Positions 3,955 to 34,398 of a DNA stretch of 46,466 nucleotides are shown piece by piece (position 1 is the first letter of the stretch; each line of letters starts with the position of its first letter). The stretch lies in the NCBI GenBank assembly GCA_024278935.1, contig JAJRSF010000056.1, forward strand, positions 1 through 46,466, read 5' to 3'. Under the pieces are notes generated by a model. The model did not search any database. It was not told the origin of the DNA and saw only the letters and a list, made by a program, of their open reading frames with translations. Position numbers and translations under genes: made by a program. Source of the DNA: Candidatus Zixiibacteriota bacterium. Its GTDB lineage: Bacteria > Zixibacteria > MSB-5A5 > GN15 > FEB-12.

Positions 3955-4020
3955 AATTACAATTTAGAAAATCAATAGTCGGTCGATTAAAGTCGGCTGA
4001 CTGCTCATCTATAAGTCATG

Positions 4021-4053
4021 AAACGGGATTATGAAAATAATCCTGTTTTTTTT
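4021..4053 (+). terminator. Intrinsic terminator of the pur operon
   Basis: AAACGGGATTAT, a GAAA tetraloop, then ATAATCCTGTTT form a 12-bp stem with one G-U pair, and eight T residues follow. It sits downstream of purH with no other gene before it, so it ends the purNCH transcript. Confidence 0.92.
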
Positions 4054-4113
4054 GGGAACTAATTTAACGTTAAAGTTGTTTTAAATATATTCTAACAAGG
4101 AGAAGAAATTTTT

Positions 4114-5136
4114 ATGCGTAAATTTATCTTTCCGTTTCTCATTTTGTTATTGATCGCATCATCGGCAGTTACCTATCCACGATTATCAGTAGAACATAAG
4201 GCACCATGTAAAAATTGTCATATCAGCCCAAATGGTGGGGGGATGCGAACTGAGTTTGCAAATTATGCCGTTGCCTTAAATGAGCTGACTTTGCCATCGA
4301 CAAAAAAAATAGCCGTTAAAAATTATAAGGGACCTCGACTGTCAGAATCGGTTACTTTTGGATTTGATACTCGTCATCTTATTTTTGATGATGGGACACT
4401 TTTTAGAATGCAGACTGACTTTTTTGCTAATCTTGAACTTTTTGAAAACATGAATTATACTCTTCGTTTTTCAGAAACAGGTATCACTGAAAATTACGGC
4501 ATGCTGACATTTGATAAACAAAAACATTATGTGCGGTTTGGTCGGTTCGCTCCATCGTTTGGGCTTAAACAGTCTGACCATAAATCGTATTCTCGGGAAC
4601 GATTAGGGCATGGTTCTTTAAACTATCTTGATGGTTTAGGAGTTGGAGTAGATCTGAGCGGTGTGCTGGTGAATGCCGAGTTTTTAAGTTACGGTCAGCA
4701 GTCATTGTTTCTTGGACATGTGATGAAAAATTTTCATCTGAATTCTTTCGGGCTATTTGCGGGAGCATCGGTGCAGCTTCCTGAAGAAGAAATCGGGCAT
4801 GATCGGTTCAGACAAGCGAAAGCAATTTTTGGCGGGTTGTCGTATGATCGGTTTACATTGATGGGTGAGGTAGATTTTGTTGGAAATTCAAGTGACACTT
4901 TAATTTCATATTTGAACTTTACCAGCCGTATAGAATACGGACTTTATTTTATAACTGAATATAATTTCTTTGACGGGGATAGAGATGTTGCCGATGGTAC
5001 CGAAGAGTATTATCGTTTTTCGGTAGAGTTGTATCCGATTTCATTTTTCCAGATAAGACCATCGTATACATATTATACCGAGGGTGCCTTAAAAGATGAA
5101 ACCGATTTTTTTGTACAAGTGCATTTTGGATACTAG
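4114..5136 (+). CDS. Exported haem-c protein fused to a predicted outer-membrane beta-barrel
   Basis: I do not recognise a named family. The 340-residue product starts with a signal peptide (about residues 1-20). Directly after it comes one c-type haem motif, CKNCH at 32-36, followed by the small-residue stretch ISPNGGGMR. The remaining 290 residues alternate polar and hydrophobic residues in short strands rich in aromatic and glycine residues, and the chain ends DFFVQVHFGY with a terminal aromatic, both typical of outer-membrane beta-barrels. AAGGAGAAG lies about 10 bases before the ATG. The gene begins a cluster with a cytochrome-like lipoprotein and a YceI-like gene. Inference: a haem at the periplasmic mouth or inside of a barrel, possibly for electron transfer or as a redox sensor. 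Confidence 0.7.
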   Translation: MRKFIFPFLILLLIASSAVTYPRLSVEHKAPCKNCHISPNGGGMRTEFANYAVALNELTLPSTKKIAVKNYKGPRLSESVTFGFDTRHLIFDDGTLFRMQTDFFANLELFENMNYTLRFSETGITENYGMLTFDKQKHYVRFGRFAPSFGLKQSDHKSYSRERLGHGSLNYLDGLGVGVDLSGVLVNAEFLSYGQQSLFLGHVMKNFHLNSFGLFAGASVQLPEEEIGHDRFRQAKAIFGGLSYDRFTLMGEVDFVGNSSDTLISYLNFTSRIEYGLYFITEYNFFDGDRDVADGTEEYYRFSVELYPISFFQIRPSYTYYTEGALKDETDFFVQVHFGY

Positions 5137-5166
5137 TTTGAAAAAATAAAAAAGGAGATTTGAAAA

Positions 5167-5589
5167 ATGAAAATGTTAAAATTAGCTCTGTTGATTTTAC
5201 CAATTTTTATTCTTGGTTGTTCCGATTCGGGTGATTCTCCAACAGCTCCAAGTAATGGTGGGGGGGGAACTGTTACCGATCCGAGTTTTGCGACAGATAT
5301 TGCTCCGCTTATTGTTGGGAATAATTGTCTGAACTCCGGTTGTCATGGAAGCGGTTCTATATCGGGTGGTCTTTCTTTAGGTTCCGGTTCGTACTCAGAT
5401 ATTAGAAATGGGGCAGGTTTACATGGTGCTATTATAACTGTCAATAATGCCGCCTCGAGTAATTTTTATTTGAAGCTGACATCATCACCTCCTTTTGGAA
5501 GTCAGATGCCTCTCACCGGTACGAAGTTGTCGACGACAAATTTAGATAAAATAAGAGACTGGATCAATCAGGGAGCCAAAGATAACTAA
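5167..5589 (+). CDS. Lipoprotein with a single cytochrome-c-like haem site (CX4CH)
   Basis: A 140-residue protein with a lipoprotein signal peptide; the lipobox ends ILGC at residues 15-18, so Cys18 would be lipidated. A low-complexity Ser/Gly/Pro linker (19-38) leads to FATDIAPLIVGNNC. The haem motif is CLNSGCHG, with Cys54, Cys59 and His60: four residues between the cysteines instead of the usual two. SQMPLTG (112-118) offers Met114 as a likely sixth ligand, and the C-terminal KIRDWINQGAKDN is typical of small periplasmic cytochrome domains found in lipoproteins. AAAGGAGAT provides a good Shine-Dalgarno. It follows the haem-barrel gene by 30 bases and overlaps the next gene's ATG by one base. 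Confidence 0.75.
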   Translation: MKMLKLALLILPIFILGCSDSGDSPTAPSNGGGGTVTDPSFATDIAPLIVGNNCLNSGCHGSGSISGGLSLGSGSYSDIRNGAGLHGAIITVNNAASSNFYLKLTSSPPFGSQMPLTGTKLSTTNLDKIRDWINQGAKDN

Positions 5590-6213
5590 TGCAGAAATAT
5601 CTGTTATTTTTATTCCTGCTCATATTTGTATCACAAGTAGAGTCGGCAGATTATGTTTTGAAACCTGTCGAGAAACTTGATACTCTTGAATTTGAATCTG
5701 ATGCAAAGCTTGAATTTATTGTTGGCAAGACTACAGTATAGAAGGTCATTTTTCATTTGATATTGACCATCCAAAGGACTCTCTGTATGGGATTATCAAA
5801 GTTGATCTTGATAGTTTGAAAACAGCTATTGCCGCCAGAGACAAAGATATGAAGAAGATTATTTGGAAACGGACAAATTTCAATTTGCCTATTTTGAGAT
5901 TTTGTCAGCTTTGGATTTGCCCGAAATAATCAAACAAGATTCTCTTTATTCTGTCGTTGGTGATGGTAATTTTTATCTGCATGGAGTCAAAAACAAACTA
6001 AAGCCGGAACTAACTTTCAAACTGCAAACAGATGGTGACTTAAACATGTTAGAGGTGACTGCAAAGTTTCATGTTTTGCTTGAGGATTATGATATCGAAC
6101 GACCTCAATTGGTTATTTTGAAAGTCGCCAGACAGATAAATATTCAGATTTCTTTTAAGTTGTTTCAGGCTGAAACATTTGAGCCGATTGTCATCCCGAA
6201 TATTTATAAGTAA
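5589..6213 (+). pseudogene. YceI-like periplasmic protein, reading frame broken by two single-base deletions
   Basis: Starting at the ATG at 5589 (TAATG overlap with the lipoprotein gene) a signal peptide MQKYLLFLFLLIFVSQVESA and about 30 more residues are read before a TAG at 5739-5741. The protein continues in the next frame from about 5741 (EGHFSFDIDHPKDSLYG, then AIAARDKDMKK) and again in a third frame from about 5860 (LETDKFQFAYFE onward) to 6213. The RDKDMKK...LETDKF pattern is the hallmark of YceI-type lipocalin-like proteins, which bind isoprenoid lipids in the periplasm. Both shifts equal one missing base, and restoring them gives about 208 residues, the usual length with signal peptide. 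Sequence error is as likely as decay. Confidence 0.72.
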
Positions 6214-10289: not shown

Positions 10290-11653
10290 ATGGCGATAAC
10301 TAAAAAAATAAAATCAGCATATTTTTGTTCACAGTGCGGGGCAGAACATCCCAAGTGGCAAGGTCAATGCAAAGAGTGCAACGCTTGGAATTCCTTGATG
10401 GAAGAAAAAGTAACGACCAAAAGAGGGCAAACTTCTAAAGTTACAGCATCAAAAAAATACGTATCCCTGATATTGAAATGTCGCAATCGTTTGGCTACAA
10501 AAGTGGAATCGATGAGTTTGACCGAGTCCTTGGCGGACATCTCTTGCCCGGCATGACAATTCTTATCGGTGGAGAACCTGGGATTGGGAAGTCGACACTT
10601 ATACTTCAGGCAGCTGAAGCGTATTCCAAATTGGGTCTGCAGGTTTTGTATGTGACCGGTGAAGAATCGCTGACACAACTCAAACTTCGTTCAAACCGTC
10701 TGCAAGTTGTAGGTGAAAATGTCACCGCTATAAATACTACTTCTCTTGAAGAAATCAATTCACTTATTTCCAAAGAAAGATATCAAGTCATCATTGTCGA
10801 TTCTATTCAGACAATTTCATCGACAATGCTTGATTCTCCTCCCGGAACTGTCGGGCAGATTCGCGAAGTGGCACATCAGTTGATATTGTCAGCTAAAGCA
10901 AATGACACAGCTCTGTTTTTAATCGGCCATGTAACCAAAGATGGTGTTGTGGCAGGTCCAAAACTTTTAGAACATATGGTTGATACGGTAATTTATTTTG
11001 AGGGAGACCATACCCATTTGTATCGGATGCTTCGTGCCAACAAAAATCGGTTTGGTTCGGTAGCAGAGATTGGTCTTTTTGAAATGCGACAGGAAGGACT
11101 TGTTGAAGTAAGTAATCCGTCATCACTTTTCCTCTCCGAAAAATATCAGGAACAACGAAGTGGGGCGGTTGTCACGGCGTTGTGCGAAGGGAGCCGTCCG
11201 ATACTTGTAGAGATACAGGCGTTGGTGACATCGGCGAACTATGGCACCGCTCAAAGAGTGGCGACAGGAATTGAGAATAAACGGTTGGCGTTGCTTCTGG
11301 CAATTTTGGAGAAACGATGCGGGTACCCAATGGGAACCAACGATGTATTTGTAAATCCGGCGGGTGGACTCAAGATTGCAGAACCTTCGGTTGATTTGGC
11401 TCTGCTTTTGTCGATAGTTTCATCGCTTCTGAACAAACCTATCGACCCATATACATTGGTGTTTGGTGAGGTTGGATTGTCGGGTGAAGTGCGTGGCGTG
11501 TCGCTTGCTGATAGACGAATCAATGAGGCGGAGAAAATGGGATTTAAAAAAGTGCTGCTTCCAAAATCAAATATTTCAAAAATTACCGATAGCAAAATTG
11601 AGCTTGTTGGAGTTGAAAATTTACAAACCGCAATAGAGAGTTTACTGAATTGA
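10290..11653 (+). pseudogene. radA: DNA repair protein RadA, one-base frameshift near codon 55
   Basis: RadA (Sms) is a RecA-like ATPase and branch-migration factor in recombination. The first frame, from ATG 10290, reads the C4 zinc finger (Cys13, Cys16, Cys27, Cys30, within CSQCGAEHPKWQGQCKEC) but goes out of frame at an A7 run at 10451-10457. The rest is intact in the next frame from that point: IRIPDIEMSQSF, Walker A GGEPGIGKSTL, the RadA-specific KNRFG motif within RANKNRFGSVAEIG, and the Lon-protease-like C-terminal domain to 11653. One extra A in the run restores a 454-residue protein of normal length. No other damage is seen, so a sequencing error or slippage at the A-run is more likely than decay. 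Confidence 0.9.
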
Positions 11654-11654
11654 T

Positions 11655-12791
11655 ATGACTGAAAAAATATATAAAAAAATAACAACCGATGGTGCCGCAC
11701 GACGTGGCGAAGTCACCACCGCTCATGGAACTATCCAAACGCCTGCGTTTATGCCTGTCGGAACATCGGGGGCGGTCAAGGCACTTATCTCTTCGGATTT
11801 GGAAGAGTGCGGAGCTGAAATAATTTTGGGGAATACTTATCATCTCTATCTTCGCCCCGGAATTGAAGTAATACAAAAGATGGGCGGGTTGGCAAAGTTT
11901 AACGGATGGAACAAACCGACTCTGACTGATTCGGGTGGTTTCCAAGTTTTTTCTCTTCGTGATATTGCTAAAATCACCGACGAGGGTGTCAAGTTTCAGT
12001 CGCATATTGATGGGTCGTATCATATGTTCACACCTGAATCTGTCATGGAAGTTGAACACGCTATCGGTGCCGATATTATTATGGCGTTTGACCAATGCGT
12101 GCAGTATCCTGCCGATTTGAAACTCGCTCAACATGGTGTTGATCGGACTTATGCATGGGCAAAACGGTGTGTGAAACGACATTAAGAGTTGATTGAAAAT
12201 GGCGGCTCGGATTACTCGATGCTCTTTGGGATTGTGCAAGGTTCTACCTATAAAGATTTGCGGACGCAGTCGGCGGAGCAGATTGTCTCGCTTGATTTTG
12301 TCGGTAATGCAATCGGTGGGCTTTCGGTTGGGGAACCTAAGGATGAGATGGAAGAGATGCTTGCCCATACGATTCAATACCTCCCTGAAGACAAACCTCG
12401 TTACTTGATGGGGGTTGGATATCCTGAAGATTTACTGATGGCGGTTTCGCATGGTGTCGATATGTTTGACTGCGTGCTTCCGACTCGGAACGCTCGGACT
12501 GGACATGTCTTTACATCGGAGGGACCTCTCATCTATCGCAACGCTACTCATACACTCGAAGATAAACCGCTCGACCCAAATTGTGATTGTAAAGTTTGCC
12601 AGCGGTATTCACGTTCGTATATCCGTCATTTGTATAATCAAAAAGAGATTACCGTGATAATTCTTGCGACTTATCATTCGACATATTTTTATCAGAAACT
12701 GATGCAAAATATTCGGAGATCGATTCAAGGTAATTGTTTTGACCTCTTCCGCAAAGAGTTCTTGGAGTTGTATAGCACTAATGGACGGTAG
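11655..12791 (+). pseudogene. tgt: tRNA-guanine transglycosylase (queuine/preQ1), interrupted by an in-frame TAA
   Basis: Exchanges guanine-34 for preQ1 in tRNAs with GUN anticodons during queuosine synthesis. The frame starts one base after the radA stop and reads normal Tgt sequence (QTPAFMPVGTSGAVKAL, LTDSGGFQVFSLRDIAKI) up to WAKRCVKRH, where TAA occupies 12183-12185. The same frame continues at once with ELIENGGSDYSMLFGIVQGS, then VDMFDCVLPTRNARTGH containing the nucleophilic Asp, and the zinc site CDCKVCQRYSRSYIRH. Both parts together make 378 codons, normal for the family. Only one codon is wrong, so a point mutation or base-call error is likely. It overlaps the convergent PIN-like gene by 14 bases. 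Confidence 0.9.
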
Positions 12792-13617
12792 GGGGATAAG
12801 CTAATTCTCTAATAAATTTCATTTTTTTTATAGTCGTCAAATTTAATGTGTTTTCATTGCGTTTAATTTGATTGAGAATATTACAATTGTCCTTTTCAAT
12901 TATAGCATATTCACAATATGGGATTGCGTGTAAATGTGCTAAATCTCCAAAATCAGAAAGGTCTTTTGGCTCTCGATTTCCCAAATAATATTTGTAGAAA
13001 ATCAATTGAGCATAAAGTTGGATTGACCGAAAAGAGTTGATGTTTATCTTTGTAGCATCTTCTTTAAAAGTCAAAAGAAAATCCTCATCATAGTCCTTTA
13101 ACCATTGTACAACGATACAAAATGTAAACAAATTCTCATCTTTTAATATATACTTACTTCCAAATTGAGGTGAAAAATTTTCTTTTAATTGATTGAATCG
13201 CTTAAGCATTTTCTTCGCGTAATTTGTTTGGTCTATATTAGAACGTGTAATTTTTTCAGATGAAATTTGATTTGATAGCTTCTTAACACCATTATTTTCC
13301 AGAAGCATTGAGTTTAAAGGTGTTAATAAGAGAGAATCTTTTCTTTTTTCAGGGTGAGATTCAAGCTCTTCTCTTAAAATCATATCCCAAGGTTTTATAT
13401 ATGCTGAAGGTAATAATAACAATAAATTGACTAACTCATCATGTAACTTCTGTACAGGAGCAAGTTCAACTAAGTGTTGCCCAGTAATAGCTATTGTTAA
13501 ATCATTTTTAATTAAAAAATCTCTAAGGGGTTTCCAAGGTAACTTCTTCTTTGCAAGCTCACTAAGTATATTTGTATCTAAATATATGAATTTTGAAAAC
13601 GTGTGTTTTCTTTCCAT
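12778..13617 (-). CDS. PIN-like domain protein, putative ribonuclease
   Basis: A 279-residue protein without a name I recognise. Its N-terminus FSKFIYLDTNILSELAKK (residues 7-24) is the first acidic strand-turn of PIN-type nucleases, with Asp14 and Asn16. ITGQHLVELAPV, around residue 50, could carry the second acidic residue. Near the C-terminus DFGDLAHLHAIPYCEYAIIE followed by KD matches the pattern of the last metal-binding acids. The middle part is long and helical, making the protein about twice the size of a VapC toxin, and no small antitoxin gene is next to it. It is AT-rich, has no clear Shine-Dalgarno and runs into the end of tgt. Probably an accessory gene. Confidence 0.6.
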   Translation of the reverse strand: MERKHTFSKFIYLDTNILSELAKKKLPWKPLRDFLIKNDLTIAITGQHLVELAPVQKLHDELVNLLLLLPSAYIKPWDMILREELESHPEKRKDSLLLTPLNSMLLENNGVKKLSNQISSEKITRSNIDQTNYAKKMLKRFNQLKENFSPQFGSKYILKDENLFTFCIVVQWLKDYDEDFLLTFKEDATKININSFRSIQLYAQLIFYKYYLGNREPKDLSDFGDLAHLHAIPYCEYAIIEKDNCNILNQIKRNENTLNLTTIKKMKFIRELAYPPTVH

Positions 13618-14128: not shown

Positions 14129-14740
14129 TTATTTCAATTTGAACAAATAGCCGATGGAGAGTTTGACATAGTTGGCTCGGAAATTGAGTTCTTCTTCGGC
14201 AAAAGAATCTGTTCCGGTTTGATTGAAGTAGACAAACGAGGGGGAGATCTCAGTGACAATAACTTCAATTGAATATTTGTGTTGTATTCGCATTCCCAAA
14301 ATAATTCGATACCCATATGCATTTGAAAAAGAAATATCTTGCGGAGGTCCATTGATACGATTTTCAAAATAATTACTTTCCGTCAGATCAAAATTTCCTA
14401 GACCATAGAGACCACCAAAACCAATATAGATAGTCATCTTTTTTGTACCTCGATAGTAAAGTGCTTCGGTTGAAAAAGAGTGTCTGCGAATTGTGCCATT
14501 CGGATAATTGAGAGCATCGACTTTTCCAAACATCAAATCAAATGATGAACGAAAAATAAAAGGATGCTTGAACAGGTATTCAAATTTGAGAGACATCTCA
14601 GGTCCCGCTAATATCATCGCACTTTGACTACTAACTCCTGCTGTCACATGCAGATTCATCGTATTAACCGTATCTTGAGTGGTAGGGTTTAACGGATAAT
14701 TTGACATACTGAGTAAAGTGGCAAGTATTATAGTAAACAA
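14129..14740 (-). CDS. Small predicted outer-membrane beta-barrel protein
   Basis: I do not recognise the family. The 203-residue product has a short hydrophobic N-terminus (FTIILATLLSM) that could be a signal peptide. Amphipathic strand-like segments with aromatic girdles follow (STEALYYRGTKKMTIYIGFG, AYGYRIILGM), and the end NYVKLSIGYLFKLK is typical of 8-strand outer-membrane proteins with a porin-like fold. The start is TTG at 14738-14740, chosen because AAGGAG lies 7 bases before it and no ATG fits better; it could also start further in. It faces away from the aldehyde dehydrogenase gene, separated from it by a 330-base regulatory gap. Confidence 0.6.
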   Translation of the reverse strand: MFTIILATLLSMSNYPLNPTTQDTVNTMNLHVTAGVSSQSAMILAGPEMSLKFEYLFKHPFIFRSSFDLMFGKVDALNYPNGTIRRHSFSTEALYYRGTKKMTIYIGFGGLYGLGNFDLTESNYFENRINGPPQDISFSNAYGYRIILGMRIQHKYSIEVIVTEISPSFVYFNQTGTDSFAEEELNFRANYVKLSIGYLFKLK

Positions 14741-31402: not shown

Positions 31403-34398
31403 ATGAATAAAAAGATAGAATTTAAAGATAAAACCAATCTCATCGTTGGTTTATTTGTCTGGGCAATCGTATTTACAGTCTATAATCTCACCAAGGCACC
31501 AACTTTATCGTTTTGGGATTGTGGCGAATTTATCGCTGCAGCCGTAAAACTCCAAATCCCACATCCTCCCGGTTCACCATTTTATATTTTGCTTGGGCGA
31601 GTATTTGCTATTTTACCGATAGCTTCTGATTTAGCCGTTCGGATAAATCTGCTTTCGGTGGTGTCGTCATCATTTACAGCTCTGTTTATCTATTTTTCAG
31701 CTGTTCAAATCATGCGATTGTCGCTTGAGCCTGTAAAGAATTTATTGAATCAAATTATTGTCTATGGGGGAGCGGTGGCATCGGCAGGCTTTGTTGCTTT
31801 TGCTTTGACAAATTGGAACAACTCGGTAGAAACTGAAGTGTATGGTTTGTCGATGATGCTTCTGACTGCAATGTTTTGGCTTTCATTTATGTATTGGGAG
31901 CATAAAGGTACAGTTCTTGCTGACAAGCTGATGTACCTAATCTTTTTTATAACATTTTGGGGGTAGGCGTTCATCTGACGACTTTCTTAATTCTGCCTGT
32001 TATTGCAATGTTTTTTATCATAGACAAATCGACAACAAAAAATGTATGGTACCTGTTTGGAACACTTTTCCTCTTTGAATTATATCTTATCTTTGCCTTT
32101 TCATCAAAGCCCGGCGAGATAGGTTTTTATATTCCACTTGTAATAGTATTTTTATTCTATCTTTTTTATATTTTCTCATTTGAAAAGATGGATAAGATTT
32201 ATACCATAGTCGGTGCTGGATTTCTATTATCATCGTTGCCATTGATCGGCGATTTGTTAGTTGTTGCTGACAGCACACGCTTTCAAACAATCAGTTCAAA
32301 TTTACATTTAGCTGGGATCCTTGGTTTTGTAGCATTACTGGCATCGGGGATTTATACCTTCTCACTCTATTGGAAAAGTCGAGACAGTAAAGATGTGAAA
32401 CAACATCATTTGATAGCTTCATTGTTTGCTCTGTTCGCATCGTTTATGATTCTTTTCTTATATCCTATCCATGGCTTTGATGCCTATAAACCGTTTTTGA
32501 TTTTGACAGCTATATTTATCTTTATCTTTTTATTAAGTTTTAAAAACCAGATCAACTGGCTCAATCTGATTGCAATCGGTGGAGTTTCATTGGTGATGAT
32601 TGGTGTCAAACCATTTTTTATGAGCATGTTGATAGCATCGGTTTTGATAATTGTTTTAGGACTCCCGAAAAAATTCCCGGGTTGGACAAATGCATTGATG
32701 ATTGTAGTGGTCGCATTTATCGGCTACTCGACTCATCTGTATATCCCGATTCGATCTCAGCAGAACCCAATTATGAACGAGAACAATCCCGGTTCATCTA
32801 TGCAGGCAACGATAGATTATATCGAACGAAAGCAATATGGTTCTATGTCGATGACCGAACGGATGTTTAAGCGAAGAGGTTCGTGGCAAAATCAGTTTGG
32901 TACACACCGTCATATGGGTTTCTGGGGTTATTTTCAAGAACAGTTTGGAACCAAAAGGGTTTCATTCCTTCCGTTATTTATGCTTGGAATTTTTGGATTA
33001 TGGGAAGTCGTCAGGCTGCGATCATCGATAGGCGTTCCATTTTTATTGGCAGTTTTCTTAGCATCGATAGGTTTGATTTTGTATATGAACTTTGCCGATG
33101 GTACTCGGATGCATCCGCAAACAGGACAAGACTATCTTGAAGTTCGTGACCGTGACTATTTCTTTACTCCGGCTTTTATTTTCTTTGGCTTAGCAATTGG
33201 AATTGGTTTATCATATATAGTCTACACAATCAAAGAGTGGTCATCTAAGCATTTGAAAAATTTGACCGTGCCAATAACTGTCGTATCGTCATTGCTTTTC
33301 TTGTCGCCAATAATTGCACTCTCGAGCAACTATTCGATTGCCAATAGAGCAAATAATTATATCGCTTTTGACTATGGTTGGAACCTTCTAACATCAGCCG
33401 ATAAAAATGCTGTTTTATTCACGGTAGGTGATAACGATACATTTACACTTTGGTGTTTACAGGATGTCTATGGGATTCGGACCGATGTGGCAGTAGTAAA
33501 TTTGTCGCTTGCAAATACTAAATGGTATATCAAACAACTTCCTACGAATTTAGGTGTGAAAACAAGTTGGAGTGAAAGCCAAGTTGACAATATGCGACCT
33601 TACCGAGATCAAAACGGAAATTATTTTGGTATGTCAGACCAAGTTGTTTCTGAAATCATCAAACAAAATTTTGCAACAAGACCGATAAATTTCTCTGTTA
33701 CAGTTCCGGAAAGCCGATGGAAGTTTTATGGAAGAGAAATTGATTCACTTATGTCACTACGTGGTATGGCGTGGCAGATGAAAAGAGAGGGCGGAGGTCC
33801 AAAAGTTGATATCGACTCAACATTGGCTTTCTTGTTAGACAGTGATCGGATGAGGTTGACGGGGATTTCTGATACGACAATTTATAAAGATGCAACGACA
33901 TTACGGTTGACAAAAAACTTTGCCCGAACTTTTATTCGTGTTGCTGATACTTTACAAAATGCAGGCGAGAACGAACGAGCCGAACAGTTAGTTGAACGAG
34001 CTGTGCGAGATGTACCGCATACTATCGATGCTATTTATTATCTTGCTGAATTATATAGTGAGAATCATTCTGATGAAAAACTTATTAAGTTGATTGAAAC
34101 GGATAGATATGCTGATAAAAAAATTCTCCGAACTTATTTAGGCAGGCTTTATTTTAGAGCGAATCAACTAGAGAAAGCAGAAACAACTTATCAGGCAGTG
34201 CTCAACGAGGACCCTACATTTCGGAAAGCGTTTGATGAATTGTTGCGGTTATATTTTGAATTAAAATATCCTGAAAAAATGAAAAAAATTGTACAAACTT
34301 GGATTGATAATAATCCGCCAGACCCTCAGATGGATGCTTTGCTGAATTCAATAGATAAAGAATTTGAACGATTAAATAGAAATAATACGAAACGATGA
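31403..34398 (+). pseudogene. DUF2723 polytopic membrane glycosyltransferase with C-terminal TPRs, one-base frameshift
   Basis: A GT-C type membrane protein of the DUF2723 family; its vertebrate relative TMEM260 is a protein O-mannosyltransferase. The first 187 codons carry the family signature APTLSFWDCGEFIAAAVKLQ, then IPHPPGSPFYILLGR. The frame breaks at TTTTGGGGG (31955-31963); one extra T or G joins FFITF to GVGVHLTTF in the next frame, which continues to 34398. Restored length is about 998 residues. The long second part has many membrane segments, a large soluble region from about 550, and TPR-like repeats near the C-terminus (LAELYSENHSDEKL, YLGRLYFRANQLEKAETTYQ). No other damage is seen, so a base-call error is likely. 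Confidence 0.85.

Follow-up and report, generated by a model that had tools for sequence, protein, structure and literature searches.

Organization of the locus

The window, that is the whole stretch of 46,466 nucleotides of DNA analysed here, is contig 57 of a 3.4-Mb Zixibacteria genome. It carries three consecutive genes on the + strand, which encode a haem-c/barrel fusion protein (4114-5136), a lipoprotein cytochrome (5167-5589) and a YceI-like protein (5589-6213), and the reality of these three genes is plain. The features of the locus are as follows.

4020-4055, + strand: terminator-like hairpin of 13 pairs with a loop of 4, then a run of T
4064-4091, + strand: possible sigma-70-like promoter, TTAACG-16-TATATT, 9/12 consensus positions, weak
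4114-5136, + strand: ORF of 340 aa (P0001), fused monohaem cytochrome c/beta-barrel protein, homologues in 35/132 genomes of the phylum
4207-4221, + strand: haem-c site CKNCH, residues 32-36, inside the conserved family signature
4351-5133, + strand: predicted 16-stranded outer-membrane barrel, residues 80-340, from profile match and strand amphipathicity
5122-5124, + strand: His337, candidate second axial haem ligand, from conservation and strand parity
5167-5589, + strand: ORF of 140 aa (P0002), haem-c lipoprotein
5218-5220, + strand: lipobox cysteine Cys18 (ILGC, residues 15-18), invariant in the lipoprotein alignment A3
5326-5346, + strand: haem-c site CLNSGCH (CX4CH), residues 54-60; Cys, Cys and His invariant in 33 haem domains
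5506-5508, + strand: Met114 of the Met-Pro pair (residues 114-115), invariant in alignments A3 and A9
5589-6213, + strand: YceI-like lipocalin gene; start overlaps the previous stop; two frameshifts in this assembly

The strong hairpin and its T run sit between purH and the three-gene module, in a region (3975-4065) that folds at -31.8 kcal/mol (z -6.1 versus shuffles); the hairpin is absent from the list produced by a simple consensus terminator scan. The promoter is graded as weak because the number of promoter-like sites in the region, 12 versus 8.4 +- 2.8 expected, is not clearly above chance. At the second joint, for which the original prediction gave coupled translation, the ATG of the YceI gene (5589-5591) overlaps the stop codon of the lipoprotein gene in the sequence TAATG.

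The assignment of the third gene to the YceI family is upheld by its Pfam match but it does not stand as an open frame, the gene being broken twice here. Tblastn with an intact relative recovers YceI as three successive pieces, each in a different frame (5628-5735 in frame 3, 5738-5857 in frame 2 and 5842-6210 in frame 1), which places one frameshift near 5736 and the other between 5842 and 5857. Read across the breaks, the protein scores 56.2 bits versus Pfam PF04264 (cut-off 23.7; E 6.6e-15); the 116-aa ORF ending at 6213 by itself reaches 23.6 bits versus the same cut-off of 23.7. Since YceI is an intact single ORF in relatives and since radA, a TPR membrane protein and tgt have defects in this window as well, the breaks are likelier to be assembly errors than signs of a dead gene. 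Frameshifts at base runs (A7, G5) affect radA (10290-11653) and the TPR membrane protein gene (31403-34398; break at about 31.96 kb), and tgt (11655-12791) carries an in-frame stop in this assembly. Just after tgt, on the opposite strand, a 279-aa protein is encoded that has no Pfam match (12778-13617, - strand), and further on lies the gene for a secreted barrel-like protein of 203 aa with a weak match to DUF3575 (14129-14740, - strand; E 0.08).

The nearest named relatives of the host are Zixibacteria metagenome-assembled genomes, two of which are Dive96 bins, a sample name as in a Southwest Indian Ridge vent study (PMC9769843). Zixibacteria are uncultured (PMC8478452) and have been reported as iron cyclers (PMC9769843, PMC8478452). 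The host genome contains cytochrome c maturation and assembly genes and three genes of the haem-copper oxidase family; an MtrB/PioB conduit (PF11854) was not found over the cut-off in this genome.

The 340-residue fusion protein

The first gene encodes, on a single chain, a hydrophobic N-terminal signal sequence, one CKNCH at residues 32-36 and a barrel-like body with the aromatic C-terminal end FGY, a composition that had been predicted and on which the ORF and the porin profile match agree. The 340-aa protein has no match in a Pfam search, Porin_O_P (PF07396) included, and its kinship with porins appears at the profile-profile level only. In hhalign comparisons the part after about residue 75 aligns with the Porin_O_P members of the phylum at 95.9% (E 5.5e-9) over 234 columns up to the C-terminus, as compared with 0.4% for a reversed profile, 1.9% for FadL and 0.1% for Phenol_MetA. 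Its putative strands, whose count of 16 is approximate since the segments were picked partly from AlphaFold secondary structure, alternate between hydrophobic and polar residues with a score of 2.63 versus 1.30 +- 0.23 in shuffles (0/2000 as high). The LbtU siderophore porin model and the OMP_b-brl model each match three barrel relatives (best E 3.6e-4 and 1.3e-3, respectively), and in the PDB the barrel profile had weak matches to OprO (E 0.4) and to the haem-site regions of cytochromes, which were not taken as evidence by themselves. AlphaFold modeling of the barrel protein (4 sequences), a check set beforehand, yielded an uninformative model with a pLDDT of 34.6, and the barrel assignment therefore rests on homology and strand pattern. 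From these we predict that the chain carries an outer-membrane barrel of the OprO/OprP-type porin superfamily.

The haem site lies within the family signature P-(R)-[LF]-x7-C-x2-C-H-x2-P-x-G-G-G-x-R. Conservation of CxxCH in homologues had been set beforehand as a test of the original prediction, and the motif is kept in all 31 full-length relatives, which are 20-80% identical; P22, C32, C35, H36, P39, G41 and R45 are invariant in the same 31 proteins. Counting back from the C-terminus, the fourth residue is His337, which is conserved in 29 of the 31 relatives and replaced by Tyr in two. As judged by strand parity it faces the pore near the periplasmic rim, and it is a candidate for the second axial ligand of this haem. 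Two methionines were considered in this context and dropped, Met44 as the distal ligand, as it is Ala in several relatives, and Met99, as it is lipid-facing by parity.

The partner lipoprotein

The second protein is, as originally described, a lipoprotein with a CX4CH haem site, having the lipobox ILGC with Cys18 and CLNSGCH at residues 54-60. Both cysteines, the histidine, the Met-Pro pair and a Trp-Ile pair are invariant across 33 haem domains. By analogy with FoxE-type cytochromes, from which the role of the Met ligand is drawn (PMC10654088), Met114 is the likely distal ligand of a His/Met-coordinated haem. In the PDB, the haem domain profile has its best match in FoxE, an iron oxidase from Rhodobacter ferrooxidans (PDB 5mab; E 5.1e-12); next come the alpha subunit of hydrazine synthase and cytochrome c6. 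FoxE shares with the family a haem-c domain ending MP...WI..GA and has His/Met ligation. Different from the window lipoprotein, however, which is a lipid-anchored monohaem protein with a CX4CH site, FoxE is dihaem and has no described lipid anchor.

The planctomycete-type cytochrome c domain PSCyt1 (PF07635) matches most haem domains of the family (24/33, best E 1.1e-10), but the window member, at 12.7 bits, stays below the curated Pfam cut-off of 22, and haem spacing in the family ranges from CX2CH to CX6CH. PccH matches four members of the family. Among 37 lipoprotein sites the spacing is CX4CH in 28, CX2CH in seven and CX5CH and CX6CH in one each. The latter two (L030:9411-10166 in G010 and L027:6819-7226 in G004) are unusual within one homologous family, close relatives carrying CX4CH and CX2CH. 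Some relatives insert a Calx-beta or Ig-like spacer between the lipid anchor and the haem domain. The AlphaFold models of the haem domain (4 sequences), with a pLDDT of 39.6, were again uninformative.

Distribution and gene linkage in the phylum

By profile, the barrel was found in 35 of 132 genomes of the phylum, belonging to 25 genera and eight families; a scan of contigs with a single barrel sequence picked up three close relatives, and plasmid records contained no match to the locus. A haem-c lipoprotein gene lies beside the barrel gene in 33 of the 34 genomes with a readable neighbourhood (in family f17 one gene further on), the exception being G118, in which a barrel fragment is located at the start of a contig. 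Lipoprotein haem domains are present in 33 of the 35 barrel genomes as opposed to 12 of the 97 others.

YceI accompanies 22 of 33 barrel loci. The gene order is barrel-lipoprotein-YceI in f1 and f5 and barrel-YceI-lipoprotein in f17, and YceI is divergently oriented in one f15 genome. It is missing in f3, f8, f16 and f19 and in one f5 genome that has a transposase-like gene. Most f1 genomes carry the unit at a purH-DUF494 site, in G022 the trio is found away from purH, and in f3 the barrel and lipoprotein(s) lie near an enolase-like gene. Gene order in relatives had been named as a point on which the original prediction could fail; linkage turned out to hold in many genera although the genomic site differs, and chance adjacency of the trio is rejected on this ground.

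Of the 12 genomes that have the lipoprotein but no haem barrel, six belong to f1, keep the lipoprotein alone at the purH-DUF494 site and have lost barrel and YceI together. Within f1, 17 genomes thus contain both barrel and YceI, six neither and none only one of them, a pattern for which the p-value is optimistic through shared ancestry; both states occur within the single genus g28. The lipoprotein-only loci (L148-L151, L155 and L156 in G011, G077, G026, G030, G023 and G006) come from several genera. A weak YceI-like match in G011 was discarded, as it falls inside the lipoprotein gene of that genome.

In five of the other six genomes YceI and a DUF5777-like barrel come after the lipoprotein gene, whereas G051 has both nearby on the opposite strand (loci L145, L146, L147, L152, L153 and L154 in G042, G050, G056, G131, G098 and G051, respectively). 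The barrel of G042 matches PF19089 at E 1e-56. The sets of G042, G050, G056, G098 and G131 are similar to the window locus in that a related lipoprotein cytochrome and YceI accompany an outer-membrane barrel, but their barrel lacks a haem site. This looks like a second way to pair the lipoprotein/YceI core with a barrel. Upstream of the sets in G042, G050 and G056, a secreted protein is encoded that has one CxxCH and Reeler/dockerin matches.

Relation to Cyc2 and other conduits

The original prediction had supposed that a monohaem barrel beside a lipoprotein cytochrome would be a different layout from the usual porin-cytochrome conduits. The fused layout is not new, since the iron oxidase Cyc2 already joins a monohaem cytochrome to an OprO/OprP-like porin of 16 strands (Keffer et al. 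2021, PMC8406198), and Cyc2-like proteins occur in the phylum. Like Cyc2, the window protein combines on one chain a signal peptide, one CxxCH close to the N-terminus and a predicted porin barrel. Cyc2 is defined, however, by the motifs AXPXFAR[QK][TY] and PXL plus a length rule (PMC8406198). Upstream of CxxCH, where Cyc2 has AXPXFAR[Q/K][T/Y], the window protein reads VTYPRLSVEHKAPCKNCH; downstream, where the PXL motif of Cyc2 follows at four residues, it reads CKNCHISPNGGG, with P at +3 and no L; and its 340 residues compare with at least 365 in the FeGenie rule and mostly more than 400 in Cyc2, several distant members of the window family exceeding 365 aa. In place of the Cyc2 motifs the family has PR[LF]..E....CxxCH..P.GGG.R, and it also differs from Cyc2 by the near-invariant His in the last strand and by its pairing with a FoxE-like lipoprotein and often YceI. 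Since it departs from both published motifs and the length rule, we file the family as a Cyc2-like variant, which by the published definition is outside Cyc2.

To what extent the two are related can be judged from the phylum itself. The DNA pattern P.FAR[KQ]....C..CH has matches in 38 of 132 genomes, as opposed to none for the reversed pattern, and the matches that were read out are mostly haem-barrel proteins of 389-458 residues, whose barrels match Porin_O_P at 97.5%. Such Cyc2-like haem-barrel proteins (e.g. L100-L109) are widespread and form several distinct groups. In profile alignments from the haem site on, they match the window family at 96% (E 4.5e-9); barrel against barrel the value is 29%, and the match is carried mainly by the haem segment. 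This falls short of direct descent from Cyc2, and we conclude that the window family probably is related to Cyc2 and works in the same way. Twelve genomes hold matches to both kinds of protein, a co-occurrence not above chance (p 0.39). In the host genome canonical Cyc2 gave neither a pattern match nor a profile match, the empty profile result being weak evidence. The MtrAB/PioAB conduits share with the proposed system the purpose of electron transfer through an outer-membrane barrel but consist of a 26-strand barrel and a separate decahaem protein, whereas the partner protein here is monohaem.

Proposed function

The best explanation for the locus is the outer-membrane redox module that had been put forward as plausible, backed by the conservation of CxxCH and by gene linkage; the architecture and the linkage of the genes are well supported, with the fusion, the conserved haem site, the porin homology and the lipoprotein cytochrome all established by computation. 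With moderate confidence we read it as a compact, Cyc2-type conduit for electrons at the outer membrane, in which they would pass from a small soluble reductant such as Fe(II) to the barrel haem and on to the lipoprotein, with YceI as an auxiliary. The porin match, which Cyc2-like proteins of the phylum share, CxxCH in 31/31 relatives, the lipoprotein pairing in 33/34 and at different genomic sites, the FoxE and PccH matches, the oxidase and maturation genes, the lack of an MtrB/PioB match over the cut-off and the reports of iron cycling by Zixibacteria count in favour of such a conduit. Against it we count the low pLDDT of the AlphaFold models, the 29% in the barrel-against-barrel comparison with Cyc2-like proteins, the chance-level co-occurrence with their genes and the occurrence of FoxE/PSCyt1-type domains in hydrazine synthase and other non-iron proteins as well.

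As to the position of the plug, the haem ligands, the substrate, the direction of electron flow and the role of YceI, we infer the following. By analogy with Cyc2, the N-terminal segment with its haem would sit like a plug in the periplasmic mouth of a 16-stranded OprP-like pore, and His337 in the last strand might provide the second ligand. From outside the cell a small soluble reductant, Fe(II) being the most plausible one, would enter the pore and reduce this haem, from which the lipid-anchored His/Met cytochrome, FoxE/PSCyt1-like and presumably on the periplasmic face, would accept the electron and hand it to the periplasmic pool and then to a terminal oxidase. YceI might bind a periplasmic isoprenoid or quinone, which it would supply or protect, acting as an additional carrier or removing lipid radicals that arise at the site. 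An accessory role of this kind fits because YceI proteins bind ubiquinone-8 and have been tied to redox reactions or radical quenching (PMC9113575, PMC8981238).

But could electrons flow in the opposite direction? YceI domains bind ubiquinone-8 and are found alongside c-type cytochrome domains in Cbp2D, a secreted redox protein that uses its cytochrome to reduce polysaccharide monooxygenases (PMC8981238), and the joint retention or loss of barrel and YceI in f1 (17/6/0) would suit a unit in which YceI-bound quinol and the lipoprotein feed the barrel haem for delivery to an extracellular Fe(III) chelate, humic quinone or enzyme. However, about one third of the barrel loci (f3, f8, f16, f19) do without YceI, which then is not an obligate electron source, and among solved structures the lipoprotein is closest to an iron oxidase. 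We regard outward delivery as unlikely. Alternatively, the barrel might serve as a porin through which a small anion or chelate is taken up, with the haem segment as a mere gate, redox sensor or structural plug. Its grouping with OprO/OprP-type porins and the match of the LbtU siderophore-porin model to three relatives would agree with that, but the dedicated haem-c lipoprotein partner is near-universal (33/34) and favours electron transfer, and uptake appears improbable to us. Much the same can be said of a role in envelope protection, in which a BcnA-like YceI would quench lipid peroxyl radicals of the outer membrane while the haem proteins would regenerate it or break down peroxides. YceI lipocalins together with a linked cytochrome b561 do so in Gram-negative bacteria (PMC9113575), and by sequence the window YceI belongs to the YceI/BcnA lipocalins (PF04264). 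Different from the BcnA/LcoA system, however, it is accompanied by c-type cytochromes and a barrel in place of a cytochrome b561, what stays constant is the pairing of barrel and lipoprotein while YceI is optional, and a porin with a built-in haem would be left unexplained; we think this quite improbable. Finally, that the family is simply a divergent Cyc2 orthologue seems very improbable, for although layout and porin superfamily are shared and distant members come near the motif (ALPEFSVRYGQNCQLCH in G122 versus AXPXFAR[QK][TY]), the window protein departs from both published motifs and from the length limit, and 12 genomes contain the family as well as Cyc2-like motif matches.

The reading as a conduit may be extended, although we do this tentatively and regard the extension as possible rather than probable. 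The family could represent a second kind of fused monohaem cytochrome-porin, whose haem is ligated by the His of its own last strand and which together with the FoxE-like lipoprotein forms a complete outer-membrane oxidase of Fe(II) or another small reductant. Lipoprotein and YceI would then constitute a reusable core that serves either the haem barrel or the haem-free DUF5777 barrel, in some genomes along with a separate monohaem protein.

The barrel family has no Pfam or NCBIfam model that names it. Markers of neutral-pH iron oxidation rest largely on the Cyc2 motifs and a length filter, which the window family would escape. Should the locus indeed move electrons, it would be a candidate route of extracellular electron uptake in an uncultured phylum that has repeatedly been tied to iron cycling, and its 340-residue barrel with a fixed partner gene would offer a small system for the biochemistry of a one-haem porin.
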